Shown one piece after another: positions 1-64,000 of a stretch of 64,000 bases of DNA. The translations under genes were made by a program, and so were the position numbers. Positions within the stretch are counted from its first letter, which is position 1. Every line of letters starts with the position of its first letter. The notes beneath the pieces are model-generated. The model saw only the letters and a list, made by a program, of their open reading frames with translations. It made no database searches and was not told the DNA's origin. This DNA is from Chamaelirium japonicum (Eukaryota > Streptophyta > Magnoliopsida > Liliales > Melanthiaceae), in assembly GCA_947650365.1 (NCBI GenBank), contig OX393551.1, forward strand, positions 95,516,697-95,580,696, read 5' to 3'.

Positions 1-1410
1 AAAAGAGAGAGAAGAAGAAAGAAGAGAACAGAGAGATAAATAAAGAGAGAAGAATTCCTGCTCCAGTCCATTCACCACGGGTATAAGTGTAAAGTAAGAA
101 ATAATCTAAATTCTAAAACTCTACTTCTTAATATTTATATGGCCCCTTTAGGGTAGGGCACATTTAACGGCTCTCTTTTTTTCCATCACACAATACGTTA
201 TCAACACGAACATGTCAAGCCCAGCCGACCAGTCATAAGAAAATAGAGAGAGAAAGGAAGATAGAAGAGAGAAAAAAAAGGAGAAGAGAATAGGGAGATA
301 AACGAAGAGAGAAGTAGAAGAAGTCCTGCTCCAACCTATTGGCCATGGGTATAGGTGTAAAATAAGAATAAATCTAATTAGGATGGGGCATGTTTGATGG
401 CTCTCCCTTTCTCCCATCTTACAACACGTTATCAGTACGAATATGTCGAGCCCAACCGACCAGTTATTAGAAAATAGAAAGAGAAACGAAGATAGAAGAG
501 AGAGAAGAAGAAAGAAGAAAATAAAGAGATAAACGAATAGAGAAGAGAGTAGAAGTCCTACTCCAGTCTATTCGCCATGGGTATAGATGTGTAGTAAGAA
601 GGAATCTAAATTATAAAACTCTACGTCTCAATAAAATAATTAAACCTCTCCGTTCTCTTCTCTCTTCTCCCATGGATTAGGGTTTACCATAGATTGCTTA
701 GACCCTAAGTAAGTATACCCTATAAATAAAATACGACCCCTTTAGGATAGGGCATATTTGATGGGTCTCTCTTTCTTTTATCTCACAAAACATTATCAGC
801 ACGAACATGTCTAGCCCAGCCAACCAGTCATAAGAAAACAAAAAGAGAAACAAAGACAGAAGAGAGAGAAGAAAACTGAGAATTAATTATTTAAATAGTC
901 TCTTCTTATGCCGGTATAGGTGTGAAGTAAGAAGGGATCTATATTCCAGAACTCCACAAAAGAGAAAGAAGAAAAGAAAAGAGAACAAAGAAATAAATAA
1001 AGAGAGAAGAGAGGCGATGTCCTGCTCTAGTCCATTGGCCACGGGTATAGGTATGAAGTAAGCAAAAATCTAAATTCCAAAACTCCATTTTTCAATATTT
1101 ATACGACCCCTTTAGGATAGGGCATGTTTGACGGCTCTCTCTTTCTCCCACCTCATAATACTTTATCAGTACGAACCTGTCGAGCCCAGCCGATCAGTTA
1201 TAAGAAAATAGAGAGAGAAACGAAGACAAAAAAGAGAGAAGAAGAGAAAAGAGAACAGAGAGACCAACAATGAGAGAAGAGAGAAGAAGACCTGCTCCAG
1301 TCTATTGGCCACGAGTATAGGTGTCAAATAAGAAGGAATCTAAATTCCAAAACTCTACTTCTTAATAATATAATTAAGTATCTTCGTTCTCTTCTTTCTT
1401 CTCCCATGGA

Positions 1411-1537
1411 TTAGGGTTTTCCATAGATAGCTTAGGCCCTAAGTAAGCCTACCCTATAAATAATATATGACCCCTTTAGATGGGGCACGTTTGACAACTC
1501 TCTTTTTCTTCCATCTTACAATACGTTATCAGCACGA
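1411..1537 (+). promoter_or_regulatory. Telo-box/TATA/LTR-end/PBS-like module
   Basis: TTAGGGTTT lies at 1411-1419, TATAAATA at 1455-1462 and CGTTATCAGCACGA at 1524-1537. The 36-bp gap from telo-box to TATA and about 70-bp gap from TATA to PBS are typical of the family. The layout matches a minimal LTR promoter with a short R-U5, but there is no evidence here of transcription. Confidence 0.55.
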
Positions 1538-1924
1538 ATATATCGAGCCTAGTCGATCAATCACAAGAAAACTGAGAGAGAAACGAAGACAAAAGAGAGA
1601 GAAGAAGAGAGCAGAGAACAGAGATATAAACGAAGATAGAAGAGAAAATAAGTCCTACTCTAATTCATTGCCATCCGATCGAACGATCTCATAACAGTTA
1701 AATTGTTTTAAAATTTTTCAAAGAAAAATATAAATTAATTTTATTAAAAAAAATTCATTGACAACCGATTGAGAGAAGAAGAGAGAAGACAATGATGAGA
1801 TAAACGAAAAGATAAGAGAGAAGAAGTCCTACTCTAGTCCATTCGCCACAGGTATAGGTGTGAAGTAAGAAAAATCTAAATTCCAAAACTCTACTTCTCA
1901 ATAGAAAAATCCCAAAGTTATTAT

Positions 1925-2840
1925 GATTATCATAGTAATGTTATTATAATTTTTTTAATTAAATTAATTATTTATTTAGTTATTAAATAATTTAATAATT
2001 ATATTTTTGGTAAATTAATTAATTTATTTAATTACTTAATTATCTAGTTATTTAATGAAATTTATTATTTTATTTATTTATTATTAGTATATTATTAAAT
2101 AATGATTTAATTATATAATTAATTTATTAATTCTTTTTAACTTAAATATTTTTAACTAGATAATTAATAAAAAGAATAATTTAACTAGTTATTTAACTTA
2201 ATTATAATAAACTAGTTATTTAAAAAGAATTATTTCATATCGGAATTAACTAGTTATTTAAAAAGAATTATTTTAAACTAGTTATTTAACTAGTTATTTA
2301 ACTTAATATTAAATAAACTTATTAATTTTTTTTATGATTTAATTATTTAATTCTTTTTATTATTAAATAATTAATCAATAATTTAAATAGTTAAAAACTT
2401 ATTTAGTTAAAACTATATTAAACAGATAATTTGTTTATAGGAATAAGTAATTTAATTATTAAATTAATTTATAGTTAAATAAACAATATTTTAAATTAAT
2501 TATTATATATTTAAAAAATTATTTTATTAAATTATAAAATATTAAATTAAATAACAAAATTAATTATTTAGTTAAGTAAAAAAATAAAATAATAATTTAT
2601 TAACTATTTACTTATTATTTAAATAATTAGTTAATTATTTGAATATATAATTAATAAAATATTTTTTAAAATAACTTTATATTTTTTTAAATAATCAAAT
2701 AAATATTTATTTATTTTAATATTTAAATAATAAATAAATTATTTAAATAATATTTTTATATAGATAATTAAATATTTTTTTAATTATTTAATTATTTAAC
2801 TATTTAATTTATTAAAATAATTAAATTAATTAAATAATAG
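1925..2840 (+). repeat. AT-rich domain of a long-class unit
   Basis: About 900 bp of almost pure A and T in TTAATTATTTAA-type words, with no gene. On the left it starts after AATCTAAATTCCAAAACTC and a TTATTATGATTATCATAG motif. On the right it ends at GGAAGTAAAGAAGGAAGAT, followed by GATCGTTCGATCGG (2937-2950) and the telo-box/TATA module. This order recurs in every long-class unit, so the domain belongs to the repeat and is not random spacer. Such DNA is a candidate matrix-attachment or easily unwound region, by composition only. Confidence 0.75.
2183..2300 (+). repeat. Local tandem repeat AACTAGTTATTTA
   Basis: About five copies of AACTAGTTATTTA start near 2183, 2210, 2248, 2274 and 2288, two of them followed by AAAAGAATTATTT. 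The mirror position in the other palindrome arm (about 6950-7030) lacks them, so they account for much of the 185-bp arm difference. They probably expanded after the palindrome formed or were lost on the other side. Confidence 0.75.
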
Positions 2841-3133
2841 GAAGTAAAGAAGGAAGATAAGGCACACCTGAATTTTTTGCTTTAGAATAATTTATATTTT
2901 TCTTTAAAAAAATTTAAAACAGTACAAATGCTATGAGATCGTTCGATCGGATGGCTATCCATCGTCGGATCTCTTCCATGGATTAAGGTTTCCCATAGAT
3001 TGCTTAGGCTCTAAGTAAGCTTAACCTACAAATAATATACGACCCCTTTGGGGTGGGGCACGTTTGACGTCTCTACTCCACTTCTTAATAATATAATTAT
3101 ATCTCTCAGTTCTCTTCTATCTTCTCCTATGGA

Positions 3134-3262
3134 TTAGGGTTTTCCATAGATGTCTTAGGTCCTAAGTAAGCTTACCCTATAAATAATATATGACTCCTTT
3201 AGGGTGGGGCACGTTTGATGACTCTCGCTTTCTCTAGTCTCACAACAAGTTATCAGCACGAA
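3134..3262 (+). promoter_or_regulatory. Telo-box/TATA/LTR-end/PBS-like module
   Basis: TTAGGGTTT starts at 3134, TATAAATA is at 3178-3185, and the PBS-like TTATCAGCACG follows at about 3250. This copy lies just downstream of the long AT-rich domain and its GATCGTTCGATCGG block, so it shows the order of parts in the long-class unit. Confidence 0.5.
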
Positions 3263-3962
3263 CATATCGAGCCCAGCCGACCAGTCGTAAGAAAACGGAG
3301 AGAGAAACGAAGACAGAAGTGGAGGTTTAGAATTTAGATTCTTTCTTAGTTCATACTTATACCCATGGTCAATGGACTAGAGCATGACTTCTTCTCTCTT
3401 ATCTCTTTGTTTATCTCTCCGTTCTCTTTCCTCTGTCTTTGTTTCTCTCTCTATTTTCTTACGACTGGTCGATTGGGCTCGACATATTCGTACTGATAAC
3501 GTGTTGTGAGATTGGAAAAAGAAAGAGCCATCAAATATGCCCAACCCTAAAAGGGTTGTATAAATATTGAGAAGTTGAGATTTGGAATTTAGATTCCTTC
3601 TTAATTCACACCTATACTCATGGCTAATGAATTGGAGCAGGATTTCTTCTCCCTTCGTTTATTTTTTCATTCTCTTCTCTCTTCTTCTCTCTTCTGTCTT
3701 TGTTTCTTTCTTCGTTTTCTCTTCTCTCTTCTTCTCTCTCTTTTGTTTTTGTTTCTCTCTCCGTTTTCACTTGACTGGTAGGCTGGGCTCAATATGTTCA
3801 TTCTGATAACGTGTTGTGAGGTGGAAGAAAGAGAGAGCAGTCAAACGTGTCCTACCCTAAAGGGGTCATATAAATATTAAGAAATGAAGTTTTGTAATTT
3901 AGATTCTTTCTTACTTCACACCTATACCCATGGCCAATGGACTGGAGTAGGACTTATTCTCT

Positions 3963-4080
3963 TTTCGTACTGATAATATTACTATAATTTTTTTAATTAA
4001 ATTAATTATTTAATTAAAACAAAGAGAGTTTTGGAATTTACTATGATAATTATAATAACTTTGAGATGATGCTATTGAGA
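3963..4080 (-). repeat. MITE-like hairpin block
   Basis: A short block whose ends are inverted copies of a motif around GTTATTATGATTATCATAG, with TTTTTTTAATTAAATTAATT between. It ends in CTATTGAGAAG at the edge of a minus-strand unit. Its mirror copy in the other palindrome arm is at 5246-5353. Related blocks occur at 11977, 17767, 54120 and 59095. It may be the AT-rich domain collapsed to its two ends; I see no transposase and no clear target duplication. Confidence 0.5.
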
Positions 4081-4591
4081 AGTGGAGTTTTGGAATTTAA
4101 ATTTATTCTTACTTCACACTTATACATATGGCGAATTGACTGGAGCAGTATTTCTTTTCTCTTCTCTCTTTGTTTATCTCTCCGTTCTTTTCTCTTTTCT
4201 GTCTTCGTTTCTCTCTTCGTTTTCTTGTGACTGGTCAGCTGGGCTCGACATGTTCATGCTGATAACGAATTATGAGATGGGAAAAGAGAGATCGAACAAA
4301 CATGCCCCACCCTAAAGGGGTCGTATTTATTTATAGGGCAAGCTTACTTAAGGCCTAAGCAATCTATGGGAAACCCTAATCCATAGGAGAATAGAGAAGA
4401 GAATGGAGATATTTAATTATATTATTGAGAAGTGGAGTTTTGAAATTTAGATTCCTTCTTACTTCACTCCTATACCAGTGGCGAATGGACTGGAGTAAGA
4501 ATTTTTTTCTCTTCTCTCTTTAATATTCTCTCCGTTCCCTTCTCTTTTCTCACAACACGTTATCAGCACGAATGTGTCAAGCCCAGCCGAT

Positions 4592-4729: not shown

Positions 4730-5245
4730 ATCGGCTGGGCTCGACACGTTCGTGCTGATAACGTGTTGTGAGAAGAGAGAAGAAGAGAGAAGGGAACAGA
4801 GAGAATATTAAAGAGAGAAGAGAAAAAAAGTCTTACTCTAGTCCATTCGCCACTGGTATAGGAGTAAAGTAAGAAGGAATCTAAATTTCAAAACTCCACT
4901 TCTCAATAATATAATTAAATATCTCCATTCTCTTCTCTATTCTCCTATGGATTAGGGTTTCCCATAGATTGCTTAGGCCTTAAGTAAGCTTGCCCTATAA
5001 ATAAATACGACCCCTTTAGGGTGGGGCATGTTTGTTGGATCTCTCTTTTCCCATCTCACAATTCGTTATAAACATGTCGTGCCCAGCTGACCAGTCACAA
5101 GAAAACGAAGAGAGAAACGAAGACAGAAAAGAGAAAAGAACGGAGAGATAAACAAAGAGAGAAGAGAAAAGAAATACTGCTCCAGTCAATTCGCCATAGG
5201 TATAAGTGTGAAGTAAGAATAAATCTAAATTCCAAAACTCCACTT

Positions 5246-5353
5246 CTCAATAGCATCATCTCAAAGTTATTATAATTATCATAGTAAATTCCAAAACTCT
5301 CTTTGTTTTAATTAAATAATTAATTTAATTAAAAAAATTATAGTAATATTATC
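5246..5353 (+). repeat. MITE-like hairpin block
   Basis: Mirror copy of 3963-4080 in the right arm of palindrome 1. It starts CTCAATAGCATCATCTC and runs through TTATTATAATTATCATAG to a TTAATTAAATAATTAATTT core and an inverted end. It has no coding content. Confidence 0.5.
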
Positions 5354-6479
5354 AGTACGAAAAGTGAATAAGTCCTGCTCCAGTTTATTGGCCATGGGTA
5401 TAGGTGTGAAGTAAGAAAGAATCTAAATTACAAAACTTCATTTCTTAATATTTATATGACCCCTTTAGGGTAGGACACGTTTGACTGCTCTCTCTTTCTT
5501 CCACCTCACAACACGTTATCAGAATGAACATATTGAGCCCAGCCTACCAGTCAAGTGAAAACGGAGAGAGAAACAAAAACAAAAGAGAGAGAAGAAGAGA
5601 GAAGAGAAAACGAAGAAAGAAACAAAGACAGAAGAGAGAAGAAAAGAGAAGAGAATGAAAAAATAAACGAAGGGAGAAGAAATCCTGCTCCAGTTCATTA
5701 GCCATGAGTATAGGTGTGAAGTAAGAAGGAATCTAAATTCCAAATCTCAATTTCTCAATATTTATACAACCCTTTTAGGGTTGGGCATATTTGATGGCTC
5801 TTTCTTTCTCCAATCTCACAACACGTTATCAGTACGAACATGTCAAGCCCAATCGACCAGTCGTAAGAAAATAGAGAGAGAAACAAAGACAGAGGAAAGA
5901 GAACGAAGAGATAAACAAAGAGATAAGAGAGAAGAAGTCATGCTCCAGTCCATTGACCATGGGTATAAGTATGAACTAAGAAAGAATCTAAATTCTAAAA
6001 CTCCACTTCTGTCTTCGTTTCTCTCTCCGTTTTCTTACGACTGGTCGGCTGGGCTCGATATGTTCGTGCTGATAACTTGTTGTGAGACTAGAGAAAGCGA
6101 GAGTCATCAAACGTGCCCCACCCTACAGGAGTCGTATATTATTTATAGGGTAAGCTTACTTAGGACCTAAGACATCTATAGAAAACCCTAATCCATAGGA
6201 GAAGATAGAAGAGAACTGAGAGATATAATTATATTATTAAGAAGTGGAGTAGAGACGTCAAACGTACCCCACCCCAAAGGGGTCGTATATTATTTGTAGG
6301 TTAAGCTTACTTAGAGCCTAATCAATCTATGGGAAACCTTAATCCATGGGAGAGATCCGACGATGGATAGCCATCCGATCGAACGATCTCATAGCATTTG
6401 TACTGTTTTAAATTTTTTTAAAGAAAAATATAAATTATTCTAAAGCAAAAAATTCAGGTGTGCCTCATCTTCCTTCTTT

Positions 6480-7195
6480 ACTTCCTATTATTTAATTAAT
6501 TTAATTATTTTAATAAATTAAATAGTTAAATAATTAAATAATTAAAAAAATATTTAATTATCTATATAAATAAATTATTTAAATAATTTATTTATTATTT
6601 AAATATTAAAATAAATAAATATTTATTTGATTATTTAAAAAATAATTAAGTTATTTTAAAAAATATTTTATTAATTATATATTCAAATAATTAACTAATT
6701 ATTTAAATAATAAGTAAATAGTTATTAAATTATTATTTTAGTTTTTTACTTAACTAAATAATTAATTTTTTTATTTAATTTAATATTTCATAATTTAATA
6801 AAATAATTTTTTAATTATATAATAATTAATTTAAAATATTGTTTATTTAACTATAAATTAATTTAATAATTAAATTACTTATTCCTATAAACAAATTATC
6901 TGTTTAATATAGTTTTAACTAAATAAGTTTTTAACTATTTAAATTATTGACTAATTATTTAATTATTTTAAAATAAAATAATAATTATTCAAATAACTAA
7001 TAAAAAGAATTAATAAATTAATTATATAATTAAATCATTATTTAATAATATACTAATAATAAATAAATAAAATAATAAATTTCATTAAATAACGAGATAA
7101 TTAAGTAATTAAATAAATTAATTAATTTACCAAAAATATAATTATTAAATTATTTAATAAGTAAATAAATAATTAATTTAATTAAAAAAATTATA
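6480..7195 (-). repeat. AT-rich domain, minus-strand unit
   Basis: Partner of 1925-2840 in the right arm of palindrome 1, without the AACTAGTTATTTA expansion. It is preceded at about 6370-6480 by the conserved block holding CCGATCGAACGATC, AAAGAAAAATATAAATTA and GCAAAAAATTCAGGTGTGCC. No gene is visible. Confidence 0.75.
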
Positions 7196-9139
7196 ATAAC
7201 ATTACTATGATAATCATAATAACTTTGGGATTTTTCTATTGAGAAGTAGAGTTTTGGTATTTAGATTCTTCTTACTTCACACCTATACCTGTGGCGAATG
7301 GACTAGAGTAGGACTTCTTCTCTCTTATCTTTTTGTTTATCTCATTATTCTCTTCTCTCTTCTTCTCTCAATCGGTTGTCAATGAATTTTTTTTAATAAA
7401 ATTAATTTATATTTTTCTTTGAAAAATTTTAAAACAATTTAACTGTTATGAGATCGTTCGATCGGATGGCAATGAATTAGAGTAGGACTTATTTTCTCTT
7501 CTATCTTCGTTTATATCTCTGTTCTCTGCTCTCTTCTTCTCTCTCATTTGTCTTCGTTTCTCTCTCAGTTTTCTTGTGATTGATCGACTGGGCTCGATAT
7601 ATTCGTGCTGATAACGTATTGTAAGATGGAAGAAAAAGAGAGTTGTCAAATGTGCCCCATCTAAAGGGGTCATATATTATTTATAGGGTATGCTTACTTA
7701 GCGCCTAAGCTATCTATGGAAAACCCTAATCCATGGGAGAAGAAAGAAGAGAACGAAGAGACTTAATTATATTATTAAGAAGTAGAGTTTTGGAATTTAG
7801 ATTCCTTCTTATTTGATACCTATACTCGTGGCCAATAGACTGGAGCAGGTCTTCTTCTCTCTTCTCTCATTGTTTATCTTTCTGTTCTCTTTTCTCTTCT
7901 TCTCTATTTTTTGTCTTCGTTTCTCTCTCTATTTTCTTATAACTGGTCGGCTGGCCTCGACAGGTTCGTACTGATAAAGTATTATGAGATGGGAGAAAGA
8001 GAGAGCCGTCAAACATGCCCTATCCTAAAGGGGTCGTATAAATATTGAAAAATGGAGTTTTGGAATTTAGATTTTTTCTTACTTCATACCTATACCCGTG
8101 GCCAATGGACTAGAGCAGGACATTGTCTCTCTTCTCTCTTTATTTATTTCTTTGTTATCTTTTCTTTTCTTCTTTCTCTTTTGTGGAGTTTTGGAATATA
8201 GATTCCTTCTTACTTCACACCTATACCGGCATAAGAAGAGACTATTTAAATAATTAATTCTCAGTTTTCTTCTCTCTCTTCTGTCTTTGTTTCTCTTTTT
8301 GTTTTCTTATGACTGGTTGGCTGGGCTAGACATGTTCGTGCTGATAATGTTTTGTGAGATAGAAGAAAGAGAGACCCGTCAAATATGTCCTATCCTAAAG
8401 GGGTCGTATTTTATTTATAGGGTATACTTACTTAGGGTCTAAGCAATCTATGGTAAACCCTAATCCATGGGAGAAGAGAGAAGAGAACGGAGAGATTTAA
8501 TTATTTTATTGAGAAGTAGAGTTTTATAATTTAGATTCCTTCTTACTACACATCTATACCCATGGCGAATAGACTGGAGTAGGACTTCTACTCTCTTCTC
8601 TATTCGTTTATCTCTTTATTTTCTTCTTTCTTCTTCTCTCTCTTCTATCTTTGTTTCTCTTTCTGTTTTCTAATAACTGGTCGGTTGGGCTCGACATATT
8701 CGTACTGATAACGTGTTGTAAGATGGGAGAAAGGGAGAGCCATCAAACATGCCCCATCCTAATTAAATTTATTCTTATTTTACACCTATACCCATGGCCA
8801 ATAGGTTGGAGCAGGACTTCTTCTACTTCTTTCTTTGTTTATCTCCCTATTCTCTTCTCCTTTTTTTTCTCTCTTCTATCTTCCTTTCTCTCTCTATTTT
8901 CTTATGACTGGTCGGCTGGGCTTGACATGTTCGTGTTGATAACGTATTGTGTGATGGAAAAAAAGAGAGCCGTTAAATGTGCCCTACCCTAAAGGGGCCA
9001 TATAAATATTAAGAAGTAGAGTTTTAGAATTTAGATTATTTCTTACTTTACACTTATACCCGTGGTGAATGGACTGGAGCAGGACTTCTTCTCTCTTTAT
9101 TTATCTCTCTGTTCTCTTCTTTCTTCTTCTCTCTCTTTT

Positions 9140-12100
9140 GTCTTCGTTTCTCTCTTTGTTTTTTTATGACTGGTCGGTTGGGCTCGATATATTCGTGCTG
9201 ATAATGTGTTGTGAGATGGAAGAAAGTGAGAGCCATCAAATGTGCTCTACCCTAAAGGGGTCGTATATTATTTATAGGGTAAGCTTACTTAGGGCATAAG
9301 AAATCTATGGGAAACCCTAATCCATAGGAGAGATCCGACGGTGGACAGCTATTCGATCGAATGATCTCATAACAGTTGTAATATTTTAAATTTTTTAAAG
9401 AAAAATATTAAATATTTTTAAAGCAAAAAATTCGGGTGTGCCTCATCTTCCTTCTTTACTTCCTATTATTTAATTAATTTAATTAGTTTAATAAATTAAA
9501 TAGTTAAATAATTAAATAATTATTTAATTATCTATATAACTAAATATTTAAATTATTTATATAATTTATTTAATATTTAAATATTAAAATAAATAAATAT
9601 TAATTTGATTATTTAAAAAATTTAAGTTATTTAAAAAAATATTTTATTATTTATATATTCAAAAAACGAACTTATTATTTAAATAATAAGTAAATAGTTA
9701 TTGAATTATTATTTTATTTTATTACTTAATTAAATAATTATTTTTTTATTTATTTTAATTAATATTTTATAATTTAATAAGAAAAATTTAATTAATTAAT
9801 TACATAATAAATTTATTAAAATTATTATTTTTTTAACTATATCTTCTTTTCTCTATTCTGTATTCGTTTCTCTTTCTGTTTTCTTGTGGCTGGTCGGTTG
9901 GGCTCGATATGTTTGTGCTATAATGTGTTGTGAGATAGAAGAAAGAGAGAGCCATCAAACATGCCCTACTCTAATTAGATTTCTTCTTACTTTACACCTA
10001 TACCCGTGGCCAATAGGTTGGAGCAGGACTTCTTCTATCTTCTCTCTTCGTTTATCTCCCTGTTCTCTTTTCTCTTTTTTTCTCTTTCCTATCTTCCTTT
10101 CTCTCTCTGTTTTCTTATGACTGGTCGGCTGGGCTTGACATCTTCGTGTTGATAACGTATTTTATTTATAGGGTAAGCTTACTTAGGGCCTAACCAATCT
10201 ATGGAAAACCTAAATCCATGGGAGATATCCGACGATGGACAGCCATCCGATAGAACATGCCCCACCCTAAAGGGGTCGTATTAATCATTTATTTAAATAA
10301 TTATTAAATTAATTCTCTTAATTAGTAAGCTTACCTTATAAGTATTTAATTATATATAATTGATTATCACCATGGGTATAGATGTGAAGTAAGAAGGAAT
10401 CTAAATTCCAAAACTCCACTTCTCAATAGTATCATCTCAACGATATTATGATTATCATAGTAATATTACTATAATTTTTTTAAATAAATTATTTATTTAT
10501 TTAATTACTAAATAATTTATTAATTTAAATAATTTAATAATTAAAATGTGTTATGAGATGGGAGAAAGTGAGAGCCGTCAAACTTGCTCAACCCTAAAGA
10601 GGTCGTATAATATAATTAAATCTCTCCGTTCTCTTTTCTCTTCTCCTATGGATTAGGGTTTCCCATAGATTGCTTAGGCCCTAAGTAAGCTTACCCTATA
10701 AATAATATACTACCCCTTTAGGGTGGGGCACGTTTATGGCTCTCTCTTTCTCTCATCTAATAACATTTATCCTATAAATAATATTTGACCCCTTTAGGGT
10801 GGGGCACTTTTGATGGCTCTCTCTTTCTCCCATCTCACAACACATTATCAGCACGAATATATCGAGCCCAGCCTACCAGTCGCAAGAAAATGGAGAGAGA
10901 CAAAGATAGAAGATAAGTTTTGGAATTTAGATTCCTTCTTACTTCATACCTATAACTGTGGTCAATGGACTGGAGCAGGACTTCTTCTCTCTTCTCTCTT
11001 CTCTCTTTATTTATCTCTCTGTTCTTTTCTTTTTTCTTCTCTAAAATCTCTCCGAAGAGAGAAGAGAAAAGAAGTCCTTCTCCAATCCATTAGCCATGGG
11101 TACAGGTGTGAAGTAAAAAGGAATTTAAATTCCAAAACTTCATAGAAGTGACAGAAAAAGAGAGAAGAGAACGAAGAGATAAACAAAGACAGAAGAGAGA
11201 GATACGATTGGTTGGTTGGGCTCGATAGTAAGAAGTGGCACACCAAAATTGCTTAGGCCCTAAGTTCAAATATTAAGAGATATATTGTCGGATATCTCCT
11301 TTAGATTAGGGTTTTCCATAGAATACTTAGGCCCTAAGTAAACTTACCCTATAAAGAATATACGACCCCTTTAGGGTGGGGCATGTTTAATGGCTCTCTC
11401 TTTCTCCCATCTCATAACACATTATCAGTACAAACATGTCGAGCCCAACGACCAGTCGCAAGAAAACGGAGAGAGAAACAAAGACAAAAGAGAGAAGAAG
11501 AAAGAAGAGAATAGAGAGATAAACTAAGATAGTAGAGAGAAGAAGTCATATTCTAGTCCATTGGCCATGCGAATAGGCATAAAGTAAGAAGGAATCTAAA
11601 TTCCAAAACTCCACTTCTCAATAATATAATTAAATCTCTCCGTTCTTTTTTTTCTTCTCCCATAGATTAGGGTTTTTCATAGATTGCTTAGGCACTAAGT
11701 AAGCTTACCCTATAAATAATATACGTCCCTTTTAGGGTGGGGCACGTTTGATGGCTCTCTTTCTCTCATCTCACAACACGTTATCAGCACGAACATATCG
11801 AGCCCAGCTGACCAGTCACAAGAAAACGAAGAGAGAAACGAAGACAGAAGAGAGAGAAGATAACAGGAGAACGGGAAGATAAACGAAAAGAGAAGAGAAA
11901 AGAAGTCATACTCCAATCCATACGCCATGGGTATAGGTATGAAGTAAGAAGGAATCTAAATTTCAAAGCACCACTTCTCAATAGTATCTTCTCAGCGTTA
12001 TTATGATTATCATAGTAATGTTACTATAATTTTTTTAATTAAATTAATTATTTGATTAAAATGAAGAGAGAACAGAATTTACTATAATAATCATAATAAC

Positions 12101-13008: not shown

Positions 13009-13413
13009 TCATTCTCTTATCTCTTCTTCTCTTTACTCGCAATATGTTATCAGCATGAACATATCAATCCCATCCAACCACTATTTAGAATTTAACTAAA
13101 TTATTTAAATATATTATTTAAATTATTTTTCTTTCCATTTTCTTCTCTCTTCTTCCCTCTCTTCTGTCTTCATTTCTCTCTCCAGTTTCTTGTGATTGGT
13201 CAGCTAGGCTCGATATGTTCATGCTGATAACGAGTTGTGAGAAAAAAAAAGAAGAGAGAAGAGAAGGGAGAGATAAACGAAGAAAGAAGAAATATTGCTC
13301 TAGTCCATTCGCCACAGGTATAGGTGTAAAGTAAGAAAGAATCTAAATTCCAAAACTCCACTTCTAAATAATATAATTAAATCTCTCCATTCTCTTCTCT
13401 CTTCTCCCATGGA

Positions 13414-37445: not shown

Positions 37446-37480
37446 TATTTGTAAGGCTTTCGGCCAAAATTTGCACCACA

Positions 37481-49960: not shown

Positions 49961-52200
49961 TATTGAAAAGTGGAGTTTTGGAATTTAGATTCCTTCTTAC
50001 TTCACAGCTATACCCATGGCCAATGGACTGGAATAGGACTTCTTCTCTCTTATCTCTTCGTTTAACTCTTTATTCTCTTTTCTCTTCTTCTCTCTCTTCT
50101 GTCTTCGTTTTTGTCTCTGTTTCCTTGTGACTGGTCAGCTAGGCTCGATATGTTCGTATTGATATCGTGTTATGAGAAGAGAGAAGGGAATAAAGAGATA
50201 AACAAAGAGAGAAAAGAGAAAAAGTCCTGCTCTATGTTATTTAACTAATATATGATTGTGAAAAAAACAGAGAGAGAAATGAAGATAGAAGAAAGAGAAG
50301 AAGAGAGAAGATAACAGAGAGATAAACGAAAAGAGAAGAGAGAAGAAGTCCTACTCCAGTCCATTGGCCATAGGTATAGGTGTAATGTAAGAAGGAATCT
50401 AAATTCTAAATCTCTACTTCTCAATATTCATGCGACCTCTTTAGGGTGGGGCAGGTTTGACGGCTCTCTTATTCTCCCATCTCATAATACTTATCATATA
50501 AATAATATATGACACCTTTAGAGTGGGGCATATTAGACGAATCTCTTTTTCTTCCATCTCACAATATACTATCAGCATGAATATATTGAGCCCAACCGAC
50601 CAGTCATAAGAAAACGGAGATAGAAACAAAGACAGAAGCGAGAAAAAGAGAAAAGAGAATAGAGAGATAAACGAAGAGATAAGAGAGATGAAGTCTTACT
50701 CCAGTCCATTAACCACGAGTATAGGTGTGAAGTAAGAAGAAATTTAAATTCCAAAACTCCACTTCTGTCTTCGTTTCTCTTTCCGTTTTCTTGTGACTGG
50801 TCGGCTGGGCTCAACATGTTCGTGCTGATAACGTGTTATGAGATGGGAGAAAGAGATAGCCGTCAAACGAGCCTTACCCTAAAGGGGTCGTATAAATATA
50901 TAGAAGTAGAGATTTGGAATTTAGATTTCTTCTTATTTCACACCTATACCCGTGGCCAATGGATTGGAGCAGGACTTCTTCTCTTTTCTCTCTTTATTTA
51001 TCTCTCTGTTCTCTTTTATCTTCTTCTGTCTCCTCTCTTTGTTCTCTTCTCTCTTCTTCCCTCTCTTCTATCTTTGTTTCTCTCTCTATTTTCTTATGAC
51101 TGGTCGGGTGGGCTTGATATGTTCATATTGATAACGTATTTTGAGATGGGAGAAAGAAAAAGCCATCAAAAGTGCCCCATTCTAAAGGGGTTGTATATTA
51201 TTTATAGCGTAAGCTAACTTAGGGCCTAAACAATCTATGAGAAAGAGAAACAAAGATAGAAGAGAGAAGAAAACATAGAGAGAAACGAAGATAGAAGAGA
51301 AAGAAGAGGAGAGAAGAGAATGAAGAGATAATCGAAGAGAGAAGAGAGAAGAAGTCTTGCTCTAGTCCATTCGCCACGGGTATAGGTGTGAAGTAAGAAA
51401 GAATCTAAATTACAAAACTCCACTTCTCAATAGTATCATCTCAACGTTATTATGATTATCATATTAATGTTACTATAATTATTTATTTTGATTATTAAAT
51501 AATTTAATACTTATATAATTTAATAATTATATAATTTAAATATTTAAGTTTTTAGTAAAATAATTAATTAATTAAATTATTTAATTATCTAGTTATTTAA
51601 TTATTTTTTTAATATTAATAATATAAAGTATACTAATTAAATAAATATTGAGAGAGAAGATAGAAGAAGTCCTGCTCCAGTCCATTCGCCACGGGTATAG
51701 GTATGAAGTAAGTAGGAATCTAAATTCCAAAACTCCACAGAAAATAGAAAAGAAGAGAGAAGAGAACAGAGGGATAAATGAAGAAAGAAGAAGTAATGCT
51801 CCAGTCCATTGACCACGGGTATAGGTATGAAGTAAGAAGAAATGTAAATTTCAAAAACTCAACTTTAACAATAGTTTATTTTATTTAGATAATTCAATAA
51901 CTATTTATACTATAATAAATATATTTAATTAATTATTTTACTAAAAACTTAATTATTAAATTATTTAAAATATTTAATAATTAAATAAATATTTAATTTA
52001 TTTAAAAAAAATTATTGTAATATTACTACGATAATCATAATAATGTTGAGATGATACTTTTGCGAAGTGAAGTTTTGGAATTTAGATTCTTTCTTATTTC
52101 ACACCTATACCCGTGACCAATGGACAGGAGCATGACTTCTTCTCTCTTCATTTATTTTTCCATTCTCTTCTCCCTTCTTCTCTCTCTTCTGTCTTCATTT
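49960..52200 (+). repeat. Direct duplication block A, copy 2
   Basis: Partner of 38700-41000, described there. It contains AT-rich patches at 51440-51640 and 51870-52025. Homology between the copies fades after the CTTCATTTCTCTCT stretch near 52195. Confidence 0.8.
51575..51850 (+). repeat. Small inverted repeat, left arm
   Basis: Reverse-complement partner of 52258-52530; coordinates sum to about 104106 and the centre is near 52053. Both arms hold an AT stretch, AATATTGAGAGAGAAGA, and two consecutive CCTGCTCCAGTCCATT-type blocks joined by AAACTCCACAGAA. Confidence 0.75.
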
Positions 52201-55330: not shown

Positions 55331-58300
55331 TTAAATAAATTTATTATTATTTAAATTATTAAATTAATTTAAATATTAAAAATTAAATAAATAATTAATT
55401 TAATTAAAAAAATATAGTAACATTACTTTGATAATCATAAAAACATAAAGATGACTGGTCAGCCTTAATTAATGGGAGAGATTCGACGGTGGATAGCGAT
55501 CTGATAATTAGAGAGAGAAGAAGAGAGAAGAGAGAAGACGTCCTACGCTAGTCCATTCACCATGGGTATAGGTGTGAAGTAAGAAAGATGGCTATCCACC
55601 GTTTGATCTCTCACATGGATTAGGGTTTCCTATAGATTGTTTAGGCCCTAAGTAAGCTTACCCTCTAAATAATATATTATTATTTTAGAGTGGGGCACGT
55701 TTGACGGCTCACTCTTTCTTCCACATCATAATACGTTATCAGCATGAACATATCGAGCCCAATTGACCAGTCACAAGAAAACGGAGAGAGAAACGAAGAC
55801 AGAAGAGCGAGAAGAAGAGATAAGAAAATAAAGAGATAAATGAAGAAAGAAGAAGTCCTGCTTCAGTTCATTAGTTACAGGTATAGGTGTGAAGTAAGAA
55901 GGAATCTAAATTCTAAAACTCCTCAGAATAGAGAGAAGAAGAGAGAAGAGAATAGAGAGATAAATGAAGAGAGGAGAAAGAAGAAGTCTTGCTCCCATCT
56001 CACAACATGTTATCAGCACGAATATGTTGAGGCTAGCTGACTAGACACTAGAAAACAGATAGAAAAACAAAAAAAGAAGAGAGAAGAAGTCCTGCTCCAA
56101 TCCATTAGCCACGGGCATAGGTGTGAAGTAGTGTGAAGTAAGAAGGAGTCTAAATTACAAAACTCAACTTCTCAATAAATAATATAGGACCCCTTTAGGG
56201 TGAGGCACGTTTGACGGCTCTCTCTTTTTTAATTATAAACTTGAAATAATCAATGTTTTTATAAATATTCTTTAGGGTGGGGCACTATTATTTATCTCTA
56301 CGTTCTCTTACTTCGTTTAAATAATTAACTAATTATTTAATTATTTAAAAATAAGATAATAATTAAAGAAATAACTAATAAAATAAATAAATAAATTAAT
56401 TATATAATTAAATCATTATTTCTTTATTTAATTATTTAAATAATTAAATAGTTATCTAATTTAATTATTTAATAATAAAATAATAATAATAAATAAAATA
56501 ATAAATTTAATTAAATAATTAGATAATTAAATAAATTAATTATTTTAATAAAAACTTAATTATTAAATTATTTAAATTAATTAATAATTAAATAAAATTT
56601 TAATTTAATTTACAAATTTATAGTATCATTAATATGATAATCATAATAACGTTGAGAAGATACTATTGAGAAGTGGAGTTTTTTAATTTAGATTCCTTCT
56701 TACTTCATACCTATACCCGTGGCCAATGGACTAGAGCATGACTTCTTCTTACTTAGGGCCTAAGCAATCTATGCGAAACCCTAATCCATGGGAAAGATCC
56801 GATTGTAAACAATTATCCGATAATTAGAAAGAGAAGAACATAGAAGAGAGAATAAGTCCAGCTCCAGTCCATTCGCCATGGGTATAGGTATGAAGTAAGA
56901 ATAATAACTGTCCACCGTCGGATCTCTCCTATAGATTAGGGATTCCCATAGATTACTTAGGCCTTAAGTAAGCTTACCCTATAAATAATAAATTATCCCT
57001 TTAGGGTGGAGCACGTTTGATGACTCTTTCTTTCTCCCATTTCACAACACGTGATTAGTATGAACATATCAAGCCCAGCCGACCAGTCGCAAGAAAATAG
57101 AGAAAGAAATGAAGATAGAAGAGAGAGAGAAGAAGAAAGAAAAGAATAGAGAGATAAATAAAGAGGGAAGAGAAAAGAAGTCCTACTCTAGTTCATTGGC
57201 CATGGGTATTGGTGTGAAGTAAGAAGGAATCTAAATTCCAAAACTCCAAAGAAGAGAGAGAAGAAGAGAGAAGATAACGAAGAGATAAATGAAGAGAGAA
57301 AAGAGAAGAAGTCCTACTCCAGTCCATTGGCCACGGGTATAAGTGTGAAGTAAGAAGGAATCTAAATTCTAAATCTCCACAGAAGAGAGAGAAGAAGAGA
57401 GATTAAATAAGGAGTAGGACTAAAAATAATATTAGTTAAATAATCTCTCCCATTCAGCACGAACATGTCGAGCCCAGCTGTTCAATCACAAAAAAACAGA
57501 GAGAGAAACAAAAACAGAAGAGAGAGAAGAAGAGAGAAGAGAACAGAGAGATAAATGAAGAGAGAAGAGAGAAGAAGTCCTGCTCCAGTCCATTCGCCAC
57601 GGGTATAGGTGTGAAGTAAAAAGGAATCTAAATTCGAAAACTCCAGTTCTCAAAATTATAATTAAATCTTTCCATTCTCTTCTCTCTTCTTCTCTCTCTT
57701 TTATCTTCTCTTCTCTCTTCGTTTTCTTGTGACTGGTCGGCTGGGCTCGATATGTTCATACTGATAACGTGTTGTGAGATGGGCGAAAGAGAGAAAAGAA
57801 CAAAAAGATAAACAAGGAGAGAAGTAATAAGAAGTCCTGCTTAGGCCCTAAGTAATCTCCCATAGATTAGGATTTATCATAGATTGCTTAGGCCCTAAGT
57901 AATCTTATCCAATAAATTATATACCTGTAACCTCTCCAGTCAATTGGCCACGGGTATAGGTGTAAATGAAAAAGGAATGTAAATTCCAAAACTCCACTTC
58001 TTAATATTTATACGACTCATTTAGGGTGGGCATATTTGATAGCTCTTCCTTTCTCCCATCTCGCAACTTGTTATCAGCATGAACATGTCGAGCCGAGCCG
58101 ACCAGTCATAAGAAAATGGAGAGAGAAATAAAGATAGAAGTGGAGTTTTGGAATTTATATTCTTTCTTACTTCATATATATACCCGTGGATAATGGACTG
58201 GAGCATGACTTCTTCTTTCTTTTCTCTTCGTTTATCTCTCCGTTATCTTCTCTCTTCTTTTCTTTCTTCTGTCTTTGTTTCTTTCTCTATTTTCTTGTGA

Positions 58301-59094
58301 CTGGTCAGCTGGGCTCGATATGTTCGTGCTGATAACGTGTTGTGAGATTAAATAAGTATAATAAATAATAAGATGGTAGAGATCTGATGGGTCGTATAAA
58401 TATTAAGAAGTGGAGTTTTGGAATTTAGATTCCTTCTTACTTCATAACTATACCCGTGGTGAATGGACTAGAGTAGGAGTTCTTCTCTCTTCTCTCTTTG
58501 TTTATCTCTTCGTTCTCTTCTCTCTTCTTTGAAGAATATACGACCCCTTTAGGATAGGGCACGTTTGACGGCTCTTTTCTCCCATCTCAAAACACATTAT
58601 CAGTACGAACATATTGAAGAGAGAAGAAGTTATATAATCAATTAAATATTTATTTAATTAGATTCCATGGGGCTCGATATATTCGTGCTAATAATGTGTT
58701 GTGAGATGGGAGAAAGAGAGAGCCGTCAAATGTGCCCCACCCTTAAAGGGTCGTATATTATTTATAGGGTAAGCTTACTTAGGGCCTAAGCAATGTATGG
58801 GAAACCCTAATCTACGGGAGAGATCTGATAGTAGGTAGTCATCCGATCGAACGATCTCATAACAGTTGTAATGTTTTAATTTTTTTAAAAAAAAAATATT
58901 AAATATTTTTCATGTAAAAAATTTATTTATTTAAATTAATTATTTTACTAAAAATTAATTTATAAATTTTTTAAATTATTAAATAATTTAAACGAAGATA
59001 AATAAGAGAGAAGAGAGAAGAAGTCTTGCTCCAGTCCATTCACCACGGGTATAGGTGCGAAGTAAAAAGGAATCTAAATTCTAAAACTTCACTT

Positions 59095-59220
59095 CTCAAT
59101 AGTATCATCTCAACGTTACTACGATTATAATAGTAAATTCTCTTCTCTCTTCATTTTAATTAAATAATTAATTTAATTAAAAAATTATAGTAGCAACACT
59201 CCACTTAATTATCATAGTAA
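59095..59220 (+). repeat. MITE-like hairpin block
   Basis: Begins CTCAATAGTATCATCTCAAC and ends ACTTAATTATCATAGTAA; it is the mirror of 17767-17894 in the other arm of inverted repeat 2. The left end is kept better here than in its partner. Confidence 0.55.
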
Positions 59221-59407
59221 TAAAATAAAGTGAGAAGAGAGAAGATAATTAAATATTTAATTAATTATTTAATTATTTAACTATTTAATTTATTAAATAA
59301 TCAAATTAATTAAATAATAGGAAGTAAAGAAAGAAGATGAAGCACACTCGAATTTTTTACTTTAAAAATATTTTACATTTTTCTTTAAAAAAATATAAAA
59401 CATTACA

Positions 59408-59591
59408 ATTGTTGTGAGATCGTTCGATCGGATGGCTGTCCACAGTCGAACCTCTCCCATGGATTAGGGTTTGTCGTAGATTGCTTAGGCCCTAAGTAAG
59501 CTTACCTTATAAATAATATACGACACTTTTAGGGTGGGGCACGCTTGACGGCCCTATTTTTCTCCCATCTTACATACGTTATCAGCACGAA
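59408..59591 (+). promoter_or_regulatory. Telo-box/TATA/PBS-like module with U3-like block
   Basis: GATCGTTCGATCGGATGGC starts at about 59418, TTAGGGTTT at 59464, TATAAATA at 59508-59515 and CGTTATCAGCACGA at about 59577. This is one of the few copies with every upstream part in consensus form. Confidence 0.55.
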
Positions 59592-61204
59592 CATATCGAG
59601 CCCAGCCGACCAGTCGTAAAAAAATGGAGAGAGAAACGAAGACAGAAGAGAGAGAAGAATAGAGAAGATAACGGAGAGATAAATGAAGATAGAAGAGAGA
59701 AGAAGTGCCGCTCCAGTCCATTAGCCATGGGTATAAGTACGAAGTAAGAAGAAATTTAAATTCAAAAACTCTACTTCTATATTTGATTCTCTCTCTGTTT
59801 TCTTACGATTGGTCAGCTAGGCTCGATATGTTCATGCTGATAACATGCTAAGAGATGGGAGAAAGAAAGAAGAGAGTAAAGAGATAAACAAAGAGAGAAG
59901 AGAGAAGAAAGAAAAAGTCCTGCTCTTTCTAGTTTAAGATGATTTTCTATCTCTTTTCTATCAATACTTATTTATTTTATTTTATACTATAAGAGAAAGA
60001 GAGAGAAATAAAGAAAACGGGGAGAGAAACAAAAGATAACGTGTTATAAGATAGGAGAAAGAGAGAGCCGTCAAATATGCCCTACCCTAAAGGAGTCGTA
60101 TATTATTTATAGGGTAAGTAGTATGAGATGGGAGAAAGAGAGAGCTATCAAACGTGCCCTACCCTAAAGGGGTCGAATATTATTTATAGGGTAAGCTTAA
60201 TTAGGGCCTAAGAATTCTATGGGAAACCCTAATCCATGGGAAAAGAGAGAAGAGAACAGAGAAATTTAATTATATTATTGAGAAGTAAAGTTTTGGAATT
60301 TAGATTCCTTCTTAATTAAACTAGATATGTTATCAGCACGAACATATCGAGCCCAGTCGACCAGTTGCAAGAAAACAGAGAGAGAAACAAAGACAGAAGT
60401 GGAGTTTTGGAATTTGGATTCTACCTTACTTTACACCTATACCCGTGGCCAATGGACTGGAGCATTACTTCTTCTCTCTTCATTTATCTCTCCGTTCTCT
60501 TTTCTCTTCTTCTTTCTCTCCTGTCTTCGTTTTTATCTCCATTTTCTTGCGATTGGTCGGCTGGGCTTGACATGTTTGTGCTGATAACGTATTGTGATTT
60601 GGGAGAAAGAGATAGAGCCGTCAAATATGCCCTACCCTAAAGGGGTCATGTATTATTTATAGGGTATGCTTACTTATAGCCTAAGCAATGTATAGGAAAT
60701 CCTAATCCATAGGAGAAGAGAGAAGAGAACGGAGATTTTTAATTATATTATTAAGAAGATGAGTTTTGGAATTCAGATTCCTTCTTACTTCAAACCTATA
60801 CCCATGGCTAATGTACTGGAGCAGAACTTCTTCTCTCTTCATTTATCTCTCTGTTCTCTTCTCTTTTCTTCTCTCTCTTCTATCTTTGTTTCTCTCTCCT
60901 TTTTCTTGTGACTAGTATGCTGGGCTCGATATGTTTATATAGATAACGTATTGTGAGATGGGAGAAAGAGAGAGCCGTCAAACGTGCCCCACCATAAAGG
61001 GGTCATTTAAATATTAAGAAGTGGTGTTTTTGAATTTAGATTCATTCTTACTTCAAATCTATACCCGTGGCCAATGGACTGGAGCAGGACTTCTTGTCTC
61101 TTCTATCTTCGTTTATTTCTCCGTTATTTTCTTTCTTCTTCTCTCTCTTTTGTATTCATTTCTCTCTTCATTTTCTTGTGACTGGTCGGTTGGGCTCGAT
61201 ATGT

Positions 61205-61332
61205 TCGTGCTGATAACGTATTATGAGATAGGATAAAGAGAGAGTCATCAAACTTGCCCTACCCTAAAGGGGTCGTATATTATTTATAGGGTAATCTTAC
61301 TTAGGGCCTAAGCAATCTATGAGAAACCCTAA
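61205..61332 (-). promoter_or_regulatory. Minus-strand telo-box/TATA/PBS-like module
   Basis: TCGTGCTGATAACG at 61205-61218, TATTTATA at 61281-61288 and AAACCCTAA at 61324-61332: all three parts in consensus form on the minus strand. It is the mirror of 15668-15794 across inverted repeat 2. Confidence 0.55.
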
Positions 61333-64000
61333 TCCATGGGAGAAGAAAGAAGAGAAAGGAGAGATTTAATTATATTATTGAGAAGTGGAGTTTTGGAATT
61401 TAGATTTCTTCTTACTTCATACCTATACCTGTGGCGAATGGACTGAAGCAGGACTTCTTCTCTCTTCTCTCTTCATTTATCTCTTTGTTCTCTTCTCACT
61501 TGTCTTAACATATTATTAGCACAAACATGTCGAGCCCAGCCGACCAGTCATAAGAAAACGGAGAGAGAAACAATGACAGAAGTGAGAGAAGAAGAGATAA
61601 GAGAACGGAAAGATAAACGAAGAGAGAAGAGAGAAGAAGTCCTACTCCAGTCCATTAGCTATGGGTATAGGTGTGAAGTAAGAATGAATCTAAATTCCGA
61701 AACTCCATAGAAGAGAGAGAAGAAAAGAGGAGAGAACGGAGAGATAAATGAAGTTAGAATATAAAAGAAGTCCTACTCCAGTCCATTGGCCATGGGTATA
61801 GGTATGAAGTAAGAAGGAATCTAAATTCCAAAACTCCATTTCTATCTTCATTTCTCTCTCCATTTTCTTGTAACTGGTCGGTTGGGCTCGATATTTTTGT
61901 GCTGATAATGTGTTATGAGATATGAGAAAGAGAGAGCCATCAAATGTGCCCCTCCCTAAAGAGGTCATATATTATTTGTAGGGTAAGCTTAATTAGGGCC
62001 ACCGTCGAATCTCTCCCATGGATTAGGATTTCCTATAGATTGCTCCAAGTAATCTTACCTTATAAATAATATATGACCCTTTTAGGGTGGGGTATGTTTG
62101 ACGGCTCTCTCTTTTTCCCATCTTATAATAAGTTATCTGTACGAACATATCGAGCCCAGCCGACCAGTCACAAGAAAACGGAGAGAGAAACAAAGACAAA
62201 AGTGGAGTTTAGGAATTTATATTCCTTCTTATGTCACACCTATACCCGTGGCCAATGGACTAGAGTAGGACTTCTTCTCTCTTTATTTATCTCTCCATTC
62301 TATTCTCTCTTATTATTTCTCTTGTGTGGAGTTTTGAAATTTAGATTCTTTATTACTTTACAGCTATACGCGTAGCCAATGGACTGAAGCAGGACTTCTT
62401 ATATCTTCTCTCTTTGTTTATCTCTCTGTTATCTTCTTTCTCTTCTTTCATCTTTTCTCTCTCTGTTTTCTTATGACTGGTCGGTTAGGTTCGACATGTT
62501 CATGTTGATAATGTGTTGTGAGAAGAGAGAAGAGAACAGAGAGACAAATAACAAAGAGAGAAGAGAGAAGAAGTCCTGTTCCAGTCCATTTTCCACAGGT
62601 ATAGGTGTGAATTAAGAAAGATTCTAAATTCCAAAACTCTACTTCTCAATAATATAATTAAATACCTTCGTTCTTTTTTCTCTTTGTCTATGGATTAGGG
62701 TTTCTTATAGATTGCTTAGGCCCTAAGTAAGCTTTTCCTATAAATAATATACGACCCCTTTAGGGTGGGGCACGTTTGACGGCTCTCTCTTTCTCCCACC
62801 TCACAGCATATTATCACTACGAATATATCGAGCCTAGCTGACCAGTCGCAAGAAAATAGTAAGAGAAATGAAGATAGAAGTGGAGTTTTGGTATTTATAT
62901 TCCTTCTTACTCCACATTTATACCCGTGGCTAATGTACTGGAGTAGGACATCTTCTCTCTTCTCTCTTCATTTATCTCTCTGTTTGCTTCTCGCTTCTTA
63001 TATCTCTTTTGTCTTTATTAAACTCCACTTCTTCTCTATATTAACGGATAGAGAAACGAAGACAAAAGAGAAAGAAAAAGAGAGAAGAAAATGGAGAGAT
63101 AAACAAAGAGAGAAGAAGTCCTGTTCCAGTCCATTGGCCACTGGTATAGGTATGAAGTTCTTTATTTTCTCTTTATTTATCTCTCTATTCTCTTATCGCT
63201 TCTTATCTCTCTTCTGTCTTCGTTAAAGTCCCCTTCTTCTGTAAATAAACGGATAAAGAAAAGTAGACAGAAGTAAGAGAAGAAAAGAAAAGAGAACGGA
63301 GAGATAAACGAAGAGAGAAGAGTGAAAAAGTCCTGCTCTAGTTAATTGGCTACAGGTATATGTGTGAAGTAAGAAGGAATTTAAATTCCAAAACTCCACT
63401 TCTGTCTTCGTTTCTGTTTCTGTTTTCTTGCGACTGGTCAGCTGGGCTTGATATGTTCGTGCTGATAAAGTGTTATGAGATGGGAGAAAGGAAGAGCTAT
63501 CAAACGTGCCCCACCATAAAGGGGTCATATGTTATTTATATAGTAAGCTTACTTAGGTCCTAAGCAATCTATGGAAAACCCTAATCCATGGGAGAAGAGA
63601 GAAGAGAATAGAGAGATTTAATTACATTATTTAGAAGTGGAGTTTTGAAATTTAGATTCCTTCTTACTTCACACCTATACCCGTGGCGAATGGACTAGAG
63701 TAATATTTCTTCTCTCTTCTTTCTTCGTTTATCTCTCCTTTCTCTTCTTTCTTCTTTTTTTTTTCTCACAACTCGTTATCAGCATGAACATATCGAGCCC
63801 AGCCGACCAGTCACAAGAAACTGAAGAGAGAAACAAAGACAGAAGAGAGGGAAGAAAAGAGAAGAGAATGGAAAGAAAAATAATTTAAATAATATATTTA
63901 AATAATTTAGTTAAATTCTAAATAGTGGTTGGCTGGGCTTGATATGTTCATGCTGATAACGTGTTGTGAGTAAAGAGAAGAAGAGAGAAGAGAATGGAGA

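Follow-up and report, generated by a model that had tools for sequence, protein, structure and literature searches.

An LTR-end and PBS repeat array near the end of C3

The window, by which we mean the whole stretch of 64,000 bp that was analysed (C3:95516697-95580696), is occupied from position 1 to position 64,000 by a satellite array with no assigned strand. The array was recognised from 125 matches, on both strands, to a primer-binding-site (PBS) string, CGTTATCAGCACGA, at up to two mismatches, against a chance mean of 0.14. Allowing three mismatches gave 146 matches, 67 on the plus and 79 on the minus strand; the preliminary description was thus right about the repeat and its presence on both strands, and too low in its count of some 70 copies. 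As it had also proposed, most sites lie just behind an ACAACA end, which is the consensus of columns -6 to -1 (A91 C63 A95 A94 C62 A96).

A TATA motif (CCCTATAAATAA, up to two mismatches, searched within 330 bp upstream) precedes 60 of the 125 PBS sites, exactly 73 bp away at 36 of those 60 and 70-75 bp away at at least 49. Anchoring copies by plain Hamming counts (145 leader and 128 LTR-end anchors) placed a PBS with at most four mismatches at 136 of the 145 leader anchors. Most units therefore carry a PBS, and the accompanying claim that most also keep a promoter gave way to a figure of about half. From 27 to 76 bp after the PBS, the sequence averages 80% purine (130 copies) vs 49% in the window; this stretch, taken at first for a polypurine tract, is a GA-rich 5' leader, the true tract (AGGGGGAG or AAGGAGGAG) being the one that precedes the 3' LTR of dispersed elements.

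Same-strand neighbours (n = 70) are spaced at 258-274 bp in 15 cases, 303-315 bp in six and 357-370 bp in 14, with the other 35 spacings shorter, in between or above 420 bp, so that the three suggested length classes exist and hold half of the spacings. Neighbouring PBS sites switch strand at 75 of 145 steps; despite this, spacings, Tandem Repeats Finder and the block structure all reveal head-to-tail units in long blocks, as in satellites derived from LTR-UTR sequence. Examples are a run of six plus-strand PBS units at 24996..26329 (sites at 24996, 25258, 25471, 25786, 26046 and 26316, spaced 213-315 bp) and about two head-to-tail 360-bp units at 11295..11987 (+; 1.9 copies, 84% matches by Tandem Repeats Finder).

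Homology to LTR, PBS and leader is recognisable over 24.8% of the window, meaning that the array fills it and the module itself does not. The remainder is made up in part of GA/TC tracts, a second repeated module (for example TATACCCGTGGCCAATGGACTGGAGCAGGACTTCT at 15331..15365, +, with 77 matches at up to three mismatches), AT-rich blocks and two insertions; one of the eight AT-rich blocks found (27468..28386, unstranded) reaches a whole-LTR copy. Because neither the second module nor the AT-rich flank ahead of the LTR occurs in any of the non-array loci fetched, some of the unit may have another source. No known RNA families (at gathering level) and no tRNA genes were found in the window, and an ORF scan and a search with proteins of L022, a dispersed element described below, revealed no convincing coding content. 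Among window ORFs of at least 110 aa, the 10 of 13 that were scanned contained no retroelement families, and a match to NatA_aux_su (E 0.0052) in one window ORF, below the curated cut-off, was taken as chance. Neither the window nor array samples L054, L076 and L077 contained a match to the L022 gag, INT or RT sequences. The window itself has no pair of LTRs around gag-pol and is not an LTR retrotransposon.

Among the matches listed, unit matches on C3 extend from 92.75 to 99.97 Mb of 100.1 Mb, and blocks of the array lie at many chromosome ends of the same genome, plus some interior sites, with interior blocks on C1, C2, C5 and C10. Homology to the window covers 98.8% of an array sample from C4 and 97.9% of one from C1. 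Larger duplications are superimposed on the units: a 9.1-kb palindrome with arms at 1..4591 (+) and 4730..9139 (-) that are 98.2% identical and separated by 138 bp, an 8-kb inverted duplication at 13010..21009 (+) and 55987..63996 (-; reaching the window end) with 91.4% identity, and a 3.7-kb direct tandem duplication at 42586..50013 (42586-46270 and 46271-50013; unstranded, 84.9%). The short loop of the palindrome is the typical shape of a fold-back read, which raises the possibility that mixed orientation and palindromes are artefacts of such reads or of assembly. We regard this as highly improbable: the palindrome arms differ at 81 of 4400 aligned bases (plus 201 gap columns) and the 8-kb pair by even more, exceeding expected read error, and both strands are also present in the samples from C4 and C1.

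Dispersed elements and a predicted half-tRNA-Ile primer

The array had been described as a satellite of LTR-end and PBS modules, with a matching-ended LTR retrotransposon in the same genome set beforehand as the test. Such an element, flanked on both outer sides by the 5-bp target duplication CAACT, lies at C9:31.404-31.412 Mb. Its LTRs of 168 bp (5') and 170 bp (3') are identical at 156 of 172 aligned columns, the PBS directly adjoins the 5' LTR, AAGGAGGAG precedes the 3' LTR, and tblastn with L022 proteins identified gag, INT and RT in copia order with broken frames. The C9 LTR alone, without the PBS, gave 123 window matches; the LTRs of L022, L023, L024 and L027, which have the same PBS, gave none at E<=1e-3. 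All 44 places matching the parent LTR core at up to one mismatch lie outside array blocks. Since the C9 element is only 73-78% similar to window copies over the whole LTR, with similarity ending some 20-35 bp into the leader, it is parent-like and the exact donor was not found.

Ten dispersed PBS loci on C1 were fetched and 10 kb of each examined for LTR pairs. In four of them, AGGGGGAG and a 5-bp duplication accompany paired LTRs of 153-174 bp; at a fifth, L021, the fetched DNA ends within a second LTR, and the 10 kb at the remaining five contained no such pair. ORFs of L022 match the Pfam families Retrotran_gag_2, zf-CCHC, gag_pre-integrs, rve and RVT_2. The dispersed elements thus combine a half-tRNA-Ile PBS at the 5' LTR with gag-INT-RT order and a 5-bp duplication, and, judged by these three features, the parent is classed as a Bianca-type Ty1/copia element. 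Another candidate parent, L026 (C1:31.898 Mb), was dropped for the C9 element; it has the TATA region and PBS in common with the satellite and gave 144 window matches (best 75.6%), its LTR-like part stops some 100 bp upstream, at the start of another repeat, and a search of 28 kb gave no second LTR.

The PBS pairs with nucleotides 27-40 of tRNA-Ile(AAU), with A34 as the single mismatch, and each of ten tRNA-Ile(AAT) loci pairs with 13 of the 14 PBS bases, the exception always being A34. In the Bianca lineage, the PBS is described as complementary to an edited half tRNA-Ile whose first anticodon base is changed from A to I (PMC6317226). With complementarity computed to the gene and A34 editing taken from the literature, the predicted primer is edited tRNA-Ile, by way of its anticodon arm; the PBS at 24996..25009 (+), an exact copy of the string, is an example of a site complementary to nucleotides 27-40. 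Half-tRNA-Ile priming, with a PBS carrying the C that pairs with inosine 34, would explain why this PBS looked odd; the initiator-Met assignment first given to it was rejected on this fit, in a scan of the genome's tRNAs confined to tRNA-Ile. In the half-tRNA priming described for copia and Ty5, cDNA starts at nucleotide 40 in the anticodon stem-loop (PMC1181622, PMC5371799), and the PBS position here predicts the same start; the tRNA named for Ty5 in that literature is initiator Met tRNA, whereas here it is tRNA-Ile.

That an ordinary satellite acquired a PBS-like string by chance resemblance has a probability close to nil: although the satellite has a further module and AT-rich sequence that matched none of the non-array loci fetched, the homology spans both the LTR and its junction with the PBS in an element flanked by target duplications, and the PBS fits all ten tRNA-Ile genes checked.

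Truncated LTRs and the probable origin and decay of the unit

Searching the window with LTR, PBS and leader of the C9 element (BLAST) gave 158 matches of 78.4% mean identity, of which 128 cross the LTR/PBS junction. Most are truncated: 135 start at LTR base 40 or later, 26 of the 158 sharing a start at base 43, and only seven start at base 1. These seven comprise a whole LTR, the PBS and the start of the leader, at 24828..25022 (+; TGTTATG...ACAACA, the best match to the C9 element at 77.8%), 9174..9374 (-; 76.5%), 17395..17595 (-; 74.0%), 18127..18321 (+; 73.2%), 28371..28571 (+; 75.5%), 58670..58864 (-; 76.1%) and 59410..59609 (+; 73.5%).

Whole LTRs with a PBS, flanks ahead of the LTR that look alike by eye in six of the seven, and the PBS retained at nearly all leader anchors are what one would see if the array consisted of a small, TRIM-like non-autonomous element (LTR-internal-LTR-internal) that Bianca-type enzymes continue to copy in trans and that returns to the array by recombination. 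We nevertheless consider this very unlikely. None of the seven whole LTRs is preceded by a polypurine tract, their flanks being AT-rich (by eye), and the great majority of matches lack the LTR start. Exact copies of the satellite LTR end with no PBS behind them, sought with a filter that admits only about 42% of random flanks, were returned at two places, one in the C9 element and one in an array unit split by a CACTA-like transposon. Finally, TATA and PBS columns are not significantly better preserved than their neighbours (TATA A/T columns 0.971 vs 0.946 for other A/T columns, random draw p 0.07; PBS p 0.14), p values that are rough because copies inside duplications are not independent. The slightly better-kept TATA columns may still reflect use. 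PBS changes, counted in 118 of the 128 LTR-end-anchored copies (ten with more than five mismatches were dropped), are C>T or G>A in 137 of 181 cases (summed counts).

We therefore favour, at roughly 90% probability, an origin of the satellite from the 5' junction (LTR, PBS and leader) of a Ty1/copia element of the half-tRNA-Ile-priming Bianca type, by passive amplification and decay. Illegitimate recombination would have removed the body of the element and fused a truncated LTR to other sequence; unequal exchange, break-induced or fold-back copying would then have amplified the junction, GA and TC tracts perhaps supplying the homology for inversions, and the copies would have been silenced and decayed mainly by C-to-T change. 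TATA box and PBS would be present because the amplified piece happened to include both, and not because they are used.

Possible function and known systems

The microRNA miR845 acts on Met-type PBSs. In a similar manner, the array could serve as a chromosome-end store of LTR-end and PBS sequence on both strands, giving rise to small RNAs directed at the half-tRNA-Ile PBS by which the whole Bianca-type lineage is silenced at the one site that it cannot readily alter, a role that we consider unlikely. A published 22-nt 'miRNA' of ice plant, mcr-miR6 (PMC4977306), is antisense to the LTR end and PBS, with its target at 47 window sites at up to three mismatches (four with one, none exact). Four unit strings searched as letters in the published literature did not occur there, and two PBS strings were found in the ice plant list and in two further works that, judged by title, concern other subjects. 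Should small RNAs be made from the arrays, it could be tested directly whether an entire retrotransposon lineage is controlled through its PBS.

The potato satellite Sobo has a long monomer. Like the present array, Sobo is an LTR-derived satellite, as entered in a published table (PMC9659126). The Ogre-derived satellites of Lathyrus are likewise described as born from retrotransposon sequence with parent elements still dispersed, but they stem from tandem repeats in the 3' UTR rather than from an LTR/PBS junction and expanded mainly in primary constrictions (PMC7004042). Bianca itself denotes retrotransposons (PMC6317226), whereas the window is non-coding, an array descended from such an element. 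A close parallel in structure is provided by maize CRM1TR and CRM4TR, tandem repeats derived from the point where LTR and UTR meet in an LTR retrotransposon, for which illegitimate recombination yielding LTR-UTR~LTR was proposed (PMC3648361); our unit similarly spans the LTR end and leader of its dispersed parent. With TATA box, LTR end and leader already reported in CRM4TR units (PMC3648361), the array is less unusual than first claimed. Its distinguishing features are a Ty1/copia parent with a half-tRNA-Ile PBS, where the CRM parent is Ty3/gypsy, and a location at many chromosome ends in mixed orientations, where the CRM1TR and CRM4TR loci are given as centromeric or pericentromeric. Few satellites have been traced to an LTR/PBS/leader junction; the array joins them as a clear Ty1/copia example, in a genome where the satellite, mostly at chromosome ends, coexists with the dispersed element family.

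Source of the satellite units

The window holds 125 matches to the 14-base primer binding site (PBS) string, against 0.14 expected by chance (≤2 mismatches, both strands), most of them preceded by an ACAACA LTR end and followed by a stretch that is 80% purine (mean over 130 copies). The preliminary description had placed units on both strands, as we find, with orientation switching at 75 of 145 neighbour steps. Its view that most units keep promoter and PBS stands for the PBS, but an upstream TATA motif accompanies only 60 of the 125 sites (at exactly 73 bp in 36 of these); likewise, its three length classes are present (258-274, 303-315 and 357-370 bp) but account for just 35 of 70 spacings between same-strand neighbours. 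A second module, a 35-base string with 77 matches on both strands (for example 13850-13884), recurs across the whole window.

Genome-wide, exact PBS copies number 14,508 (7,170 + 7,338). The 100 places listed among them all fall on contig C1, 75 spread over 8.7-112 Mb and 25 packed into 0.2 Mb at 116.3-116.5 Mb; therefore, dispersed copies and dense blocks both exist. We fetched 10 kb around each of ten of the 75 dispersed places. Four loci (L022, L023, L024 and L027) carry paired LTRs of 153-174 bp with a 5-bp target duplication, and AGGGGGAG precedes the 3′ LTR in each; in L021 the second LTR is cut off by the end of the fetched stretch, and the other five loci have no such LTR pair within 10 kb. 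In L022, copia gag, integrase and reverse transcriptase lie in open frames. The LTRs of these four elements give no matches in the window.

A genome search for the satellite LTR end without a PBS behind it returned two places. One, on C157 (G000:C157:542834; near base 1501 of L030, reverse strand), is a satellite unit split by a CACTACAAGAAA... sequence that resembles a CACTA transposon. The other belongs to C9, where it forms the 3′ LTR of a Ty1/copia element (31.404-31.412 Mb) that is full-length although broken. The two LTRs of this element measure 168 and 170 bp and agree at 156 of 172 aligned columns; CAACT stands at both outer sides, the PBS follows immediately after the 5′ LTR, and the gag-INT-RT interior has broken frames. 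Used alone, the LTR of the C9 element matches the window 123 times, so a retrotransposon with matching ends, whose absence was to count against the preliminary description, does exist in this genome; target duplications, sought there at dispersed copies, flank this element as well as four of the ten C1 loci. A core stretch of 33 bases from the C9 LTR occurs at 44 places with ≤1 mismatch (all listed); none is inside the satellite blocks, and on C5, C9, C10 and C11 some form same-strand pairs with 6-10 kb between them. When ≤3 mismatches are allowed, a similar core occurs at 159 places, among which satellite units from the blocks start to appear.

Queried with the C9 LTR, PBS and 46 leader bases, the window returned 158 matches (mean identity 78.4%), 128 of which span the LTR/PBS junction, and similarity stops within the leader. 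Seven copies start at LTR base 1 and extend through the PBS, while 26 junction-crossing matches start at LTR base 43, a common start that suggests one shared truncation, local alignment ends being rough breakpoints only. The flanks before the seven whole-LTR copies are all AT-rich, six of them alike by eye, and none contains a polypurine tract; this AT-rich pre-LTR sequence and the second module are absent from all non-array loci fetched. We put at about 0.9 the probability that the satellite arose from the LTR-PBS-leader junction of a half-tRNA-Ile-primed (Bianca-type) Ty1/copia retrotransposon.

Primer tRNA

Ten tRNA-Ile(AAT) genes from the genome were set against the reverse complement of the PBS, the comparison being confined to tRNA-Ile; a 25-base search string is exact in nine genes and has two mismatches in one, and ARAGORN calls tRNA-Ile at all ten loci. 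In every gene the PBS pairs at 13 of 14 bases (nt 27-40, numbered from the anticodon), with A34 as the sole mismatch. In the mature tRNA, according to the literature, A34 is inosine, which pairs with the C of the PBS. Half-tRNA-Ile is also the primer described by Neumann and co-workers for Bianca elements, with the inosine included in their account (PMC6317226). The reported start for half-tRNA elements is nt 40 (PMC1181622), and fungal Helenus and Copia elements are also primed from anticodon loops, tRNA-Ile included (PMC10886601). The priming mechanism is therefore not new.

Chromosomal location and array rearrangement

The window lies at 95.5 Mb of the 100.1-Mb C3, whose start carries telomere repeats, in a 1.52-Gb assembly with twelve large contigs. 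A 60-base unit string (≤3 mismatches) occurs at 1,045 places; the 100 among these matches listed include places near the starts of C2 to C8 (within 2.6 Mb), near the ends of C3, C4 and C7, and on small contigs. The rest of the matches listed fall in interior blocks on C1 (117-118 of 137 Mb; 116-118 Mb when the PBS places are included), C2 (108.8-111.5 of 122.5 Mb), C5 (82.9-83.5 of 93 Mb) and C10 (58.5-60.3 of 73.6 Mb). The full list for a 94-base string (≤2 mismatches) comprises 24 places: 15 on small contigs, four ≤6 Mb from a chromosome-contig end, and five within the interior blocks of C2 and C10. The chromosome end is thus a main place of the satellite and not the sole one; scaffold joins could explain some of the interior blocks. 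These blocks, 10-20 Mb from the contig end, could be sites where ends have fused, genuine interstitial sites or errors of scaffolding. Two 6-kb array samples, from C4 and C1, are 98.8% and 97.9% covered by window homology, with units on both strands.

The window contains a 9.1-kb palindrome (1-9139; arms 98.2% identical, 138 bp apart), an 8-kb inverted duplication (91% identity) and a 3.7-kb direct duplication (85%); these differing identities and orientations point to segments having been copied on different occasions, in direct as well as inverted orientation; tracts of GA and TC, together with inverted modules, may have supplied the homology. Two insertions lie inside satellite units. The first, 2288 bp at 33888-36175, has TG...CA ends and is flanked by the 5-bp duplication ACTTC; it resembles a solo LTR or a short LTR element of non-autonomous type. 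The second, 876 bp at 36606-37481, has inverted terminal sequences and appears MITE-like. Eight blocks fall below 17% GC (1846-2950, 6377-7291, 9350-9915, 20254-20784, 21632-22423, 27468-28386, 54553-55503 and 56217-56724), some of which adjoin the beginning of a whole-LTR copy.

Amplification and known LTR-derived satellites

Of the 50 window matches that extend far enough, 44 have an exact TATA core, but A/T columns are well kept generally (0.971 for those of the TATA, 0.946 for the others; p 0.07 by random draw); the corresponding value for the PBS is p 0.14. Among PBS changes, 137 of 181 are C>T or G>A (counts summed over 118 LTR-end-anchored copies, 10 of 128 having been dropped with >5 PBS mismatches), and the coding parts of L022 find no match in the window. 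We therefore favour passive amplification as the probable history of the array. That the arrays make small RNAs against the half-tRNA-Ile PBS and so silence the Bianca-type lineage is, we judge, very improbable; its main support comes from another species, the ice plant, where mcr-miR6 TTCGTGCTGATAACGTGTTGAA is listed as a new miRNA (PMC4977306). By sequence, this miRNA runs antisense to the end of an LTR plus the half-tRNA-Ile PBS, a link drawn here; a role as a retrotransposon-directed small RNA is possible.

Among the open-licence papers listed, none deals with a Bianca-derived satellite, and a search of that literature for four unit strings gave no paper. Among known cases, Ogre-derived satellites have 3′ UTR repeats as their source (PMC7004042), and a review table gives Sobo as LTR-derived and PisTR-A as from the Ogre 3′ UTR (PMC9659126). 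Maize CRM1TR and CRM4TR are tandem repeats from LTR-UTR sequence, and CRM4TR includes a TATA motif (PMC3648361).
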